Under the pieces are notes generated by a model that had not been told where the DNA came from, made no database searches, and saw only the letters and a program-made list of their open reading frames with translations. A program made the position numbers and the translations under genes. A stretch of 48,486 bases of DNA. Origin: a delta proteobacterium MLS_D. GTDB lineage: Bacteria > Desulfobacterota > Syntrophia > Syntrophales > UBA2210. Location of the stretch: positions 1-48,486 of the forward strand of contig LQBH01000006.1 of assembly GCA_002030015.1 (NCBI GenBank). The letters run 5' to 3'. Of this stretch, positions 7,634-31,098 are shown in pieces. Each line of letters opens with the position of its first letter. The stretch's first letter is position 1.

Positions 7634-8959
7634 ATGGAACGCTTCTTCTCTTCTCATTCATGGCCCCGGGCCATCATTCATATCGACGCCGACGCCTTTT
7701 TCACCTCCTGCGAAGAGGCGGTTCACCCGGAACTCCGGGGCAGGCCCGTCGTCACGGGCGGAGAACGGGGCATCGTGGCCTGCGCCAGCTACACCGCCAA
7801 GCGGCTGGGCGTCGCGCGGGGCGTTCCGCTTCACCGGGCCCGGGTTATCTGTCCCGACCTGGTCGTTCTTCCTTCCGATTATGAAACCTACAGCCTCTTC
7901 TCGCGTCGGATGTTCGCGATCCTGCGCCGCTTTACGCCCCAGGTTGAAGAATATTCAATCGACGAGGCCTTCGCCGACGTAACCGGCATGCGGCGGGTGC
8001 TCCGGGGATCCTATGAAAGGATAGCCGAAACCATCAAGAACACCGTGGCCCGTGAACTGGGCCTGAGCGTTTCCCTGGGTCTCAGCGTCAGCAAAGTACT
8101 CGCGAAAATCGCCTCGAAGTATCAGAAACCCGACGGCATAACCGTCGTGCCGGGCGGCGCCATCGAATCGTTCCTGGCGAACCTTCCGGTGGAGGCGGTC
8201 TGGGGCATTGGGCACGCCACGAGCAACTACCTGAACAAAATTACTATTCGGACGGCTTTGGATTTCGCCTCTCTTTCCGAAGCGCGGGTGAAACGCGAAT
8301 TTCACAAGCCATTGAGAGACATCTGGAGCGAACTCAGGGGCGATTCAGTCTATCCTGTCATCCCCGCGGAAAAAAGCCGTTACGCGTCGATCTCCAAGAC
8401 AAAAACCTTCGCTCCCGCCCGCCGCGATCCCGATTACCTGTTCGCTCAGTTGTTCCGAAATCTCGAGTCAGCCTGCATCAAGGCGCGCCGGTACCGGCTT
8501 TCTCCCCGTAGAATCGCGCTTTTTCTCAAAACACAGGATTTCCGGGTCTCCGGAACTGACGCCCGGCTGAACCGGCCTTCAGCCCTGCCCCTCGAGTACA
8601 CCGATCTCATCGAGGAACTGTTCCGTGAACTGTACAAGCCTGGAATCCGCTATCGTTCGACGGGCGTGGTTCTTCTCGACCTTGTTCCGGACACTACCGT
8701 CCAGTACGATCTTTTCGAAGACACCCTGCGAGCCGAACGTGTGAAACGGCTCTACACGGCCGCGGACCATCTTGCCGGAAAGTTCGGCAAGCACACCGTC
8801 TACCTGGGAGGTTCCCACCCGTTGCAGCGCCAGGGAACGGGGAAACGGGGAAACCCCACGGCGCGTGCGGCGACCCGCCTGCCGGGTGAAACCGCCAGAA
8901 AACACCTGGGATTCGCCCTTTTTTACCTGGCGGAAACGGACGATGAGGAAACGGAGTAA
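7634..8959 (+). CDS. dinB: DNA polymerase IV (Y-family translesion polymerase)
   Basis: A 441-residue error-prone polymerase that copies past DNA lesions. The palm aspartate is in IIHIDADAFFTSCEEAV (Asp18), and the second acidic pair is in YSIDEAF (Asp110, Glu111). Helix-hairpin-helix DNA-binding sequence follows (VSKVLAKIASKYQKPDG, then AVWGIGHATSNYL). A QYDLF clamp-binding-like motif occurs near residue 357, followed by a C-terminal extension of roughly 80 residues, longer than in E. coli DinB. The gene is monocistronic, behind a TTGACA promoter with an embedded LexA-like operator, so DNA-damage induction is likely. Confidence 0.92.
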   Translation: MERFFSSHSWPRAIIHIDADAFFTSCEEAVHPELRGRPVVTGGERGIVACASYTAKRLGVARGVPLHRARVICPDLVVLPSDYETYSLFSRRMFAILRRFTPQVEEYSIDEAFADVTGMRRVLRGSYERIAETIKNTVARELGLSVSLGLSVSKVLAKIASKYQKPDGITVVPGGAIESFLANLPVEAVWGIGHATSNYLNKITIRTALDFASLSEARVKREFHKPLRDIWSELRGDSVYPVIPAEKSRYASISKTKTFAPARRDPDYLFAQLFRNLESACIKARRYRLSPRRIALFLKTQDFRVSGTDARLNRPSALPLEYTDLIEELFRELYKPGIRYRSTGVVLLDLVPDTTVQYDLFEDTLRAERVKRLYTAADHLAGKFGKHTVYLGGSHPLQRQGTGKRGNPTARAATRLPGETARKHLGFALFYLAETDDEETE

Positions 8960-8993
8960 CTCGTCCTTCCGCAGACCAACCGATTCAGGACTT

Positions 8994-9529
8994 CCCAAAT
9001 CCGCGATTGGTTTAGCCTGTTCATGGTACGGACAGTTCAACACCCTGTTAATTCGGCACTATATGTGCTGTCCAATGAACATTCAGACCACACCATCAAA
9101 GATGCTGCAATGACAGATCAAGCTGAATCATCCATGAACCACCCCACCTCGAAAGAGGAAGCACCCCCTCCCCTTCATCCCCTCCCTCCAGGGGAGGGGA
9201 AAAAACTTTTTACGGGATCAGCACATCTCTTCAGGAAGAGGGAAAATACGATATGAACTGCCCCTCCGGAAAGGTGAACTACCCGGGGCGATTCGGTCAC
9301 GCAAAAGTCTCAAGATGGAATCACCCTCTCCCTTCAAGGGAGATGGCTAGGGTGAGTGGTGAAAGAATAATGTTATTACAGGTCGTTAAATATCCCCTTC
9401 CCTCCGGGGGAGGGGACAGAGAAAATGCGGCCCATCGCCATAGCCTCCAGCTTCTTTATTATATTCTTCGACTTTTTATAGTGATGACTCGATAACGTGT
9501 TCTACAGAAAAGCAATCGCGGATTTTGGG
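8994..9529 (+). mobile_element. MITE-like element, copy 1 (536 bp, TIRs, 7-bp direct repeats)
   Basis: The stretch is bounded by inverted ends: CCCAAATCCGCGATTG (8994-9009) and CAATCGCGGATTTTGGG (9513-9529), complementary except for one extra base. Immediately outside, AGGACTT occurs at 8987-8993 and again at 9530-9536, which fits a 7-bp target duplication. No convincing gene lies inside, so it would be non-autonomous. The first ~210 bp and the last ~80 bp are clearly related to 30496-31047. Internal structure includes a hairpin CCCCTCCC/GGGAGGGG (9179-9199) and a second palindromic unit around 9322-9360 with CACCCT/AGGGTG arms. It fills most of the dinB-cupin gap (8960-9632); nothing else is seen there except a TTGACA hexamer at 9544-9549. 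Confidence 0.75.
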
Positions 9530-9632
9530 AGGACTTTCCTTCCTTGACAGTTTTGAACGCTTCCTGTTACTCTGCGTCGATCTTGCGCCGTAGCGGTGAC
9601 AGAGTGGCATTGAACCGGGAGAAAAAACCATC

Positions 9633-10301
9633 ATGGACGACAAACCAAAGAAACTCGACGATTTCTGCCGGGACTGCTCGGAGGGACTTGCCGGTCTTGA
9701 GGACAACGACGCGCGCATTGCTTTCGTGACATCCATTTTCGAGCCGCTGCTTGCAGACACGCCGCTTTTCAGGGAAATTCTTGAAAACGTGCTTGAAGGA
9801 CACCCTTACCCTGATGTCCGACATCCCACCATGTTCGACAACGAGTTGATACTCCATCTCGATCCTGCGGGCAGGTTTTCCCTGCGTATGTTTCTCTGGC
9901 CGCCCGGAAGTTTCGATCCGGTCCATGATCACAATTCGTGGGGTGTTATCGGACCCGTTAATGGCAGACTCAAGGTCCGTGACTTCCGGCACCGCGATGA
10001 AGACGACGCCGCTCCCGGATATTTCACCGGTGTCATGGAAATCGGGCGCCGCATCATCCTGCCGGGCATGTCCTACCGGGTTCTTCCCCTGAACGAGGGT
10101 ATCCACCAGACGGGAAACCCCACCGATGCAACGGTGATCCAGGTGAGCATATACGGCAAGAAACAAAGTGACAGACCGTACATTAATATTTATGACGAAG
10201 CGTCGGGAAGAATATACCCGTTGTACAGCCCCCCGGTGCGGAAACGCATGCTTGCAGAACTGGCCCTGGAAGCACTGGCAGCAGAAATACCGTCGACCTG
10301 A
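9633..10301 (+). CDS. Cysteine-dioxygenase-like cupin (thiol dioxygenase family candidate)
   Basis: A 222-residue protein of the double-stranded beta-helix (cupin) superfamily, close to the cysteine dioxygenase type I group. The metal-binding pair is seen in PVHDHNSWGVIGPVNG (His-x-His, about residues 98-100), and a third histidine in LNEGIHQTGNP (about residue 153), the 3-His facial triad expected for a non-haem iron dioxygenase. It would oxidise a thiol such as cysteine to a sulfinate; the exact substrate cannot be read from the sequence. It stands alone between a mobile-like element and the convergent atp operon. A TTGACA at 9544-9549 may be its -35, though no good -10 follows. Confidence 0.72.
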   Translation: MDDKPKKLDDFCRDCSEGLAGLEDNDARIAFVTSIFEPLLADTPLFREILENVLEGHPYPDVRHPTMFDNELILHLDPAGRFSLRMFLWPPGSFDPVHDHNSWGVIGPVNGRLKVRDFRHRDEDDAAPGYFTGVMEIGRRIILPGMSYRVLPLNEGIHQTGNPTDATVIQVSIYGKKQSDRPYINIYDEASGRIYPLYSPPVRKRMLAELALEALAAEIPST

Positions 10302-28997: not shown

Positions 28998-30377
28998 TTA
29001 TTCGATCCGGTAACGTTTCAGCTTTTCCACGTAGGTCGTTCGGTTGAGGTTGAGAAGCTTCGCAGCCTTGTTTTTTACCCCGCCCGATTTTCTCAGCGCC
29101 TTCAGAAGCAGGTCCCGCTCGAACTGGTCGATGAGAGATGTTATGTTCAAACCCTCGTCGGGAATGTGAATACTCGGCGGTGACGCGCCGTCATGGCTAA
29201 CGGCCCGGCGGATTTTCTCGGGCAGATCCTGTTCGTCGATTATGCCCTCACCCTTCATAACCACGAGCATTTCTATGATGTTTTGAAGCTCGCGCACGTT
29301 TCCCGGCCAGTGATAATGAAGCATCAATTCAACGGCCCGGTCGCTTACTCCTTCGATACGTTTTTTGTTCGATTTCCTAAAAACATTGATGAAATGATTG
29401 ATTAACGAAGGTATGTCTTCCTTCCGTTCCCGCAGCGGCGGCAGGGCAATGGGAATCACGTTGATCCGGTAAAAAAGGTCTTCCCGAAAACGTTTTTCCT
29501 TGACGGCCTTTTCCAGGTCCTGGTTCGTGGCGGTGATGATGCGTACATCGGCGTCGATTGTCTGCGTGCCGCCAATTCGCTCGAACTGTCTTTCCTGGAT
29601 TACCCGAAGCAGCTTTACTTGCAGCGAAGGGCTCATATCGCCTATTTCGTCGAGAAAGATAGATCCACGCTGGGCGAGTTCGAACCTGCCCGTCCTGCTT
29701 CGAACGGCGCCGGTAAACGCCCCTTTCTCGTGGCCGAACATCTCACTCTCCAGCAATTCTTCCGGGATTGCGCCGCAATTAACGGTCACAAGCGGAAAGG
29801 ACTGCCGTTCGCTGTTGAAGTGGAGGGCCCGGGCCACAAGTTCCTTGCCCGTACCGCTTTCACCATAGATGATGACGGTGCTGTCGGTTTCCGCGACTTT
29901 CCTGACGGCATCGAAAACCTCCCTCATACCGCTGCTCAGGCCGATCATACGGCCGAAATCGTATTTGTCGTGCAGCTGGTCCTTCAGAGATTCGTTTTCT
30001 TCCCGAAGGCGGGCTAATGACAACGCCCTTTCCACGGACAGATGGACACGGTCGGGTTTGAGAGGCTTGGTAATATAATCGTAGGCGCCCAGTTTCATGG
30101 CCTCGACGGCGCTGCTGACGGATGCGTAGCCGGTGACGACAATCACGACTACGTCGGAATCCTGTTCCTTGAGGCGCTTGAGAAGCTCCATACCGTCGAG
30201 GCGGGGCATTTTCAGGTCGGTAATCACCAGGTCGTACGTACCGTCCGAAAATACCCTCAGCGCCTCTTCCCCGTCACCGGCCACGTCGACGCGACCGGCG
30301 TCCGGTGAAAGCATTTCGAAGAGGTTCTCCCGGTTGATCGCGTTATCATCGACGACAAGGATTCTGGGCTTTCTCAT
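28998..30377 (-). CDS. Sigma-54-dependent response regulator (FlrC/FleR/NtrC type)
   Basis: A 459-residue three-domain activator. Receiver (about residues 5-118) with LVVDDN and the phosphorylated Asp in LVITDLKMP; AAA+ domain (about 140-370) with Walker A GESGTGKE, the sigma-54 contact loop GAFTGA and Walker B SIFLDEIGDM; C-terminal Fis helix-turn-helix with NKAAKLLNLNRTTYVEKLKR. The NRTTxVEKLK ending is common in flagellar regulators FleQ/FlrA/FlrC. The start is ATG 30377, or GTG three codons upstream; neither has an ideal ribosome site. No cognate kinase is adjacent. Control of flagellar genes is inference, supported by the nearby sigma-54 and sigma-28 sites. Confidence 0.88.
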   Translation of the reverse strand: MRKPRILVVDDNAINRENLFEMLSPDAGRVDVAGDGEEALRVFSDGTYDLVITDLKMPRLDGMELLKRLKEQDSDVVVIVVTGYASVSSAVEAMKLGAYDYITKPLKPDRVHLSVERALSLARLREENESLKDQLHDKYDFGRMIGLSSGMREVFDAVRKVAETDSTVIIYGESGTGKELVARALHFNSERQSFPLVTVNCGAIPEELLESEMFGHEKGAFTGAVRSRTGRFELAQRGSIFLDEIGDMSPSLQVKLLRVIQERQFERIGGTQTIDADVRIITATNQDLEKAVKEKRFREDLFYRINVIPIALPPLRERKEDIPSLINHFINVFRKSNKKRIEGVSDRAVELMLHYHWPGNVRELQNIIEMLVVMKGEGIIDEQDLPEKIRRAVSHDGASPPSIHIPDEGLNITSLIDQFERDLLLKALRKSGGVKNKAAKLLNLNRTTYVEKLKRYRIE

Positions 30378-30495
30378 CTGCTCCACACCCCGCGCGCCGG
30401 CCTGAAGGAGAGAAGAACGGTGGTCGTGCCTGCGGAACCTTCCAGTCAGGATAATGTAAACAAAATATTACTAATAGTCAACCATAAAGACCTCC

Positions 30496-31047
30496 GGCGC
30501 AATCCGCGGTTAGCTTAGCCTGTTCGTGGTACAGACAGTTAAACGCCCAGTTAATGCGGTACGATACGTGCTGTCCGATACACATTCAGACCGGACCATC
30601 AAGGGTGCGGCAATGACAGAACAAGCTGAAGCACCATGAACCGTTCCACCTCGAACGAGAAACAGTCTACCGGGTGGAGCCACCCCCTCCCCTTCATCCC
30701 CTCCCTCCAGGGGAGGGGAAACGATCGTGTTCGGCTTCTTCCTGCCCGGTCTATCCTTCGACAAGCCTATCCTGAGCTATGCCGAAGGGCTCTGCCCTGG
30801 CGGGCACGTGAGCGCGAACGGTTTTCCGCAGATCCGTTCGTCCTCGTGTGCCCTTTAGGGTAGAGCTTGTCGAAGGATGAACGTCTTCCTGGTCGCCTGC
30901 CCGTACTTAGACACGAACTCTCCTGAGCCCCGTCGATGGCCAAACGTCCGTACCATCTCTGTTATATCCTTCGACTGTGCATACTGAAACGTTGCATATT
31001 GATGACCCGATATCTTGCTCTGAAGACAATCAATCGCGGATTGTGGG
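30496..31047 (+). mobile_element. MITE-like element, copy 2 (about 552 bp)
   Basis: Related to 8994-9529 along its first ~220 bp (shared landmarks TTAGCCTGTTC, GTGCTGTCC, ACATTCAGACC, CAATGACAGA, CTTCATCCCCTCCCTCCAGG) and its last ~90 bp (CCTTCGACT, TGATGACCCGATA, CAATCGCGGATT). The right end is CAATCGCGGATTGTGGG (31031-31047); the left end CAATCCGCGGTT (30500-30511) is its inverse with one mismatch, but the outermost four bases have diverged to GGCG. GACCTCC flanks both sides (30489-30495, 31048-31054); the match extends to 12 bases, GACCTCCGGCGC. The middle differs from copy 1 and contains a long inverted repeat. No gene inside is credible. It occupies most of the 30378-31176 gap. Confidence 0.72.
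30753..30878. repeat. Nested inverted repeat inside MITE-like copy 2
   Basis: Outer arms ATCCTTCGACAAGC (30753-30766) and GCTTGTCGAAGGAT (30865-30878) are perfect 14-base complements. Within them are GGGCAC/GTGCCC (30802-30807, 30848-30853) and CGAACGG/CCGTTCG (30815-30821, 30834-30840). This forms a long cruciform or hairpin. It is absent from copy 1, so it looks like a separate palindromic intergenic repeat inserted in, or exchanged into, the element. Confidence 0.7.
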
Positions 31048-31098
31048 GACCTCCGGCGCCCCGCCGACGCAGGCGCTCGGGCGTATCATAAAAATAAT

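Follow-up and report, generated by a model that had tools for sequence, protein, structure and literature searches.

MITE-type elements with putative IS1380-type ends lie at a fixed distance from predicted promoters in delta proteobacterium MLS_D and its relatives

The stretch of contig LQBH01000006.1 analyzed here (the window, 48,486 nucleotides) holds two copies, E1 and E2, of a short repeat without genes. These copies very probably belong to a MITE-type family on whose ends a DDE transposase of the IS1380 type acts in trans and whose insertion is in register with promoters. The insertions keep a fixed register to predicted promoters, they do so in either orientation of the element, and the predicted promoters were present before the element arrived. 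The features of both copies are listed in Table 1.

Table 1. Coordinates of the two element copies and their adjoining features in the window
Feature	Position	Strand	Remarks
E1, focal MITE copy, left to right end	8994..9529	+	536 bp
E1 target duplication, left copy AGGACTT	8987..8993	.	Sequence
E1 left terminal inverted repeat (TIR) CCCAAATCCGCGATTG	8994..9009	+	Sequence, TIR pattern search
E1 left subterminal domain, conserved	9010..9129	+	Common to about 20 full-length copies
E1 variable interior, GC-rich REP-like palindromes (e.g. 9178-9199, 9395-9416)	9157..9416	.	
E1 right subterminal domain, conserved	9420..9512	+	Right-end similarity search
E1 right TIR CAATCGCGGATTTTGGG	9513..9529	-	Sequence, TIR pattern search
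E1 target duplication, right copy AGGACTT	9530..9536	.	Sequence
E1-adjacent predicted sigma-70-like promoter	9544..9572	+	TTGACA 9544-9549, 17-nt spacer, TTACTC 9567-9572
E2, second MITE copy	30497..31047	+	Left end GCGCAATCCGCGGTT, right end CAATCGCGGATTGTGGG
E2 target duplication GACCTCCG, left	30489..30496	.	Sequence
E2 target duplication GACCTCCG, right	31048..31055	.	Sequence
E2-adjacent predicted sigma-70-like promoter	30453..30481	-	TTGACT 30481-30476, 17-nt spacer, TACATT 30458-30453

Structure, copy number and mobility of the family

The left neighbor of E1 is a gene for a DinB/UmuC-type polymerase (7634-8959, Pfam IMS), and the right neighbor is a 222-aa gene without Pfam match (9633-10301). 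A preliminary description had proposed inverted ends of 16-17 bp with a 7-bp duplication directly outside them, and this is what the element has: the ends are near-perfect inverted repeats (CCCRAAATCCGCGATTG) bracketed by two copies of AGGACTT and, taken as 23-nt arms (8991-9013 and 9509-9531), are 87% complementary. The interior had been described as gene-free with GC-rich palindromic units. The palindromes are present, no ORF of at least 100 aa is contained in E1, and a 113-aa frame (8772-9113, plus strand) and a 154-aa frame (8579-9043, minus strand) only overlap its left end. The second copy that had been reported, E2, was also recovered, with its duplication on both sides. Its left end has GCGC in place of the expected CCCA, and because CCC(A) was lost there, the GACCTCCG repeat can be extended to the 12-bp GACCTCCGGCGC (30489-30500 and 31048-31059).

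Similarity among copies in the left subterminal domain stops at a fixed point, past which the copies differ in the set of GC-rich palindromes that follows, these being of the CCCTCCCTCCAGGGGAGGGG type, the TTCGACAGGCTCAGG type and the GGATACCGG-TTCGCCGGTATGACG type. Inside the two MITEs of the window, REP-like palindrome families (CCCTCCCTCCAGGGGAGGGG, TTCGACAGGCTCAGG and GGATACCGG..CCGGTATGACG) are found at 9157-9416 and 30676-30880. The CCCTCCCTCCAGGGGAGGGG type also forms tandem-like clusters on contigs of the same genome (G000) that are free of TIRs (C19, C42, C44, C54 and C55), and is therefore an independent REP-like repeat. The palindromic interior may have been captured from such genome-resident repeats as passive cargo. 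Elements of a genome from another family of the phylum (G191) contain yet other palindromes.

About 20-25 copies are present in the MLS_D genome, which is 96% complete at 2.5 Mb in 70 contigs; copy numbers are much higher in two congeners. A search for the TIR pattern gave 16 matches in this genome and none for the reversed pattern; with at most one mismatch, 42 sites were found, against zero for the reversed control. The further copies that the preliminary description proposed to look for were located by similarity as well, the left ~136 bp of E1 matching about 24 places in the genome (80-92% identity) and the right ~110 bp matching 22. Two further congeners have one TIR match each, and the left domain is absent from 14 other genomes of the family of MLS_D. 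The exact left end, with the same element layout, is found on public contig DSBH01000157 from a 'Deltaproteobacteria bacterium' MAG.

Several side observations concern the range of forms. In G007 a minimal element of ~50 bp (L115, G007:C56:46570-46620) consists of little more than two TIRs that face each other, bracketed by TGCAAG on both sides. In four genomes from other families of the phylum (G191, G259, G337 and G189) there are 9-34 exact TIR ends each (loci L300-L304, L313-L316, L321-L349 and L355-L363), the interiors being different, and this kind of element is therefore widespread. At contig ends in G005, unrelated sequence breaks into two copies: an AT-rich stretch in L118 (G005:C87:1-120) and, beside the TIR, the end of an ORF in L119 (G005:C9:1-120). 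These interruptions are perhaps nested insertions.

Mobility is documented by target duplications and empty sites. Perfect duplications of 5-8 bp flank 14 of the 30 copies for which both borders are available, compared with 1.25% of mismatched border pairs, which served as chance control. Duplications were counted from fixed TIR anchors and the modal length is 6 bp, after an ambiguous third C/G was assigned to the element; about half of the copies have no readable duplication. The joined flanks of the MLS_D insertions were searched against four congeners, and for six insertions, E1 and E2 among them, this gave a continuous orthologous site without the element. The E1 site, the empty allele in a relative that had been suggested as a check, is on G006:C184 and has one diverged target copy and the promoter. 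The E2 site is on G005:C46, where the promoter can be aligned. Small indels have accumulated in the empty sites, and in some of them the single target copy can therefore not be read. In contrast to the empty G005 site, G006 has an element beside the same promoter at nearly the position of E2. The short length, TIRs, lack of a transposase gene, target duplications, empty sites and dispersed copies support the assignment of the family to MITEs. Together with the same ends on transposase-bearing relatives, they bear out the earlier reading of a non-autonomous family.

Position of the insertions relative to predicted promoters

Among 97 distinct flanks, 22 have the motif TTGAC at offset 14-15 outward from the TIR, and no other offset has it more than once. 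Promoters were predicted from sequence with a two-box score against a sigma-70-like consensus (TTGACA-17-TATAAT, -10 box at 16-18 bp). A score of at least 8 out of 12 was reached at the register by 32 of 96 distinct flanks and by 0-4 at other offset pairs, and a shuffle control (500 shuffles) gave a mean of 2.0 and a maximum of 7. This main flank set excludes L162-L166, L173 and L178, which are TIR matches in distant genomes that resemble chance hits in genes. A promoter normally faces only one of the two ends; counted per insertion, the register therefore holds for roughly two thirds. Roughly a third of the copies have no recognisable promoter.

Both copies in the window follow the register. 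The predicted promoter by E1 starts 14 nt from the element end and reads into the gene at 9633-10301; that by E2 starts 15 nt from the end and reads into a minus-strand gene (28998-30386) encoding a sigma-54 activator response regulator. The promoter adjoins the left end in 18 cases and the right end in 11, and one MLS_D copy (C46:107603) has promoter boxes at register distance on both sides, i.e. divergent promoters. ORFs lie downstream of the predicted promoters flanking the MLS_D copies, and copies are intergenic where examined. The empty alleles keep the promoters, which therefore belong to the target and not to the element.

The register is present at all six ends examined in G117, G118 and G138. 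A second flank set from other families, gathered after the register had been fixed (mainly from G189, G191, G238, G259, G287, G320, G337 and G437), has 28 of 71 flanks at offset 14-15 and 2-10 elsewhere, the background being higher in these AT-rich genomes. The fixed placement at ~14 bp suggests that either promoter DNA or the transcription machinery guides the transposase.

Candidate transposase

No IS1380 gene was found in the MLS_D genome by PF13701 profile search or protein search, no transposase was found inside any copy of the genus (the unpaired TIRs of G000, G005 and G006 were examined), and the viral contigs searched for the transposase gave no match. As no such transposase with these TIRs was found in the genus, the partner was deduced from relatives. 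A class-wide TIR search found in G138 two TIRs, one perfect and one with three mismatches, and between them 1.09 kb that include a decayed IS1380 transposase. Its ATG is ~116 nt inside the element, and its two pieces match NCBIfam IS1380 NF033539 with E = 6e-27 and 7e-10. A Candidatus Methylocalor plasmid harbors, inside the same TIRs, an IS1380-type gene (54% identity) that is split by another transposase. In G138, G113, G189 and the Methylocalor plasmid, the IS1380 gene starts 105-125 nt inside the same TIR. An IS1380-type gene is associated with one end only of the same TIRs in G113, G139, G189, G287 and G437; in G139, G287 and G437 the gene pieces adjoin the other end. Contigs of G189 stop inside copies, and an intact transposase N-terminus is present on them. 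The G117 and G118 contigs, whose ends were followed as a possible intact IS, also break inside the element. Transposase-bearing elements with the same ends, which the preliminary description suggested looking for, thus exist in other lineages but were not found in the genus of MLS_D. The genes found are mostly decayed or truncated, and assembly gave no autonomous element that is both complete and intact.

The same TIR pattern is seen in IS1380 copies of other sequence from the class, CCCAGATTCCGCAATAG being an example. From these sequence associations we conclude that the element ends are probably of the IS1380 type. The association between TIR and transposase was preferred to guesses of an IS family based on nothing but the TIR letters. 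The elements share with the IS1380 family, e.g. IS1247, the TIR pattern CC-N-RAATCC, and the transposases of related elements with the same TIRs match NF033539/PF13701. However, the elements described here are non-autonomous, and their modal target duplication is 6 bp, whereas that of IS1247 is 5 bp (PMC3281130); standard membership of IS1380 is therefore not claimed. Two IS1380 copies examined in this work have duplications of 4-5 bp. The promoter register also sets the present elements apart, since it is absent at four IS1380 copies with other TIRs. Promoter targeting would therefore be at best a property of one lineage, and an IS1380-wide habit is unsupported.

Mechanism, alternatives and significance

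In the mechanism we propose, an IS1380-type DDE transposase would act in trans on the MITE ends and would select promoter DNA, either directly or through promoter-bound RNA polymerase. The element end lies ~14 bp upstream of the -35 box of the predicted promoter, which reads away from it, and either end can take this place. Copies would land around position -50, and therefore neither the gene nor the core promoter would be broken. A more specific version, on which our judgement is evenly divided, is that a transposase of the IS1380 lineage steers its own elements and the MITEs to -50 via promoter-bound RNA polymerase, a habit that would be independently evolved and non-Mutator.

A possible alternative, although we would not expect it to hold, is that the transposase reads only TTGAC at a fixed spacing and that promoters are struck merely as carriers of the motif. 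TTG is indeed the most conserved part of the register. However, a -10 box at ~17 bp is also present, even at ends with a weak -35 box, such as TGCATA-17-TATAAT at G000:C69 and TTGCAT-17-TATCGT at G000:C5. That two boxes are found together, even beside a weak -35, favors the promoter complex as the probable target.

In bacteria, promoter-registered insertion is known from the Mutator-like elements TnGBS, ISLre2 and part of ISKra4. Their insertion sites lie 15-17 bp upstream of sigma-A promoters, and an analogy to yeast Ty3 has been drawn (Guerillot et al. 2014, PMC3942029). The TnGBS/ISLre2/ISKra4 elements (p-MULT 3 and 4) resemble the present family in the short, constant distance (15-17 bp, and 16 bp from IR-right) and in near-symmetric inverted repeats that let either end face the promoter (PMC3942029). 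They differ in the transposase superfamily, the distance here being ~14 bp and the genes found with the TIRs being of the IS1380 type, while the elements of this genus are gene-less. That ISLre2 or ISKra4 mobilises the family and the IS1380 genes are bystanders is improbable, although those families have such a target habit (PMC3942029) and the genus of MLS_D lacks an intact partner. The IS1380 genes start at a similar distance inside the same TIR in several lineages, and similar TIRs border other IS1380 copies of the class. Furthermore, ISLre2 and ISKra4 produce 8-bp target duplications, with which the 6-bp duplication is at odds.

It is very unlikely that insertion is random and that purifying selection alone has spared intergenic copies close to promoters. 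The intergenic location of the copies agrees with it, and insertions in genes would be lost, but a peak 2 bp wide at a single offset is not easily made by selection. Finally, the GC-rich internal palindromes could fold, but a transcription terminator or part of a structured RNA is ruled out for practical purposes by the empty sites, and the target duplications, the lack of an Rfam match for the element and the sharing of ends with transposase-bearing elements also speak against the ends being a mere terminator part.

The family resembles Correia elements and other intergenic bacterial MITEs in being short, gene-less, intergenic and multi-copy with TIRs (PMC10969869). However, Correia elements carry their own promoter, while the elements described here have a variable REP-like cargo and take up a fixed register to a host promoter that was already in place. 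No report of promoter-registered insertion for IS1380-type ends was found in the literature searched, in which few subscription papers were covered. With a second transposase lineage showing the promoter habit, the manner in which promoters are read, by DNA motif or by contact with the polymerase, becomes testable by comparison. The element ends mark likely sigma-70 promoters in unstudied lineages with near base-pair precision, and placement at about -50 can swap the upstream regulatory DNA of many genes while leaving the genes unbroken.
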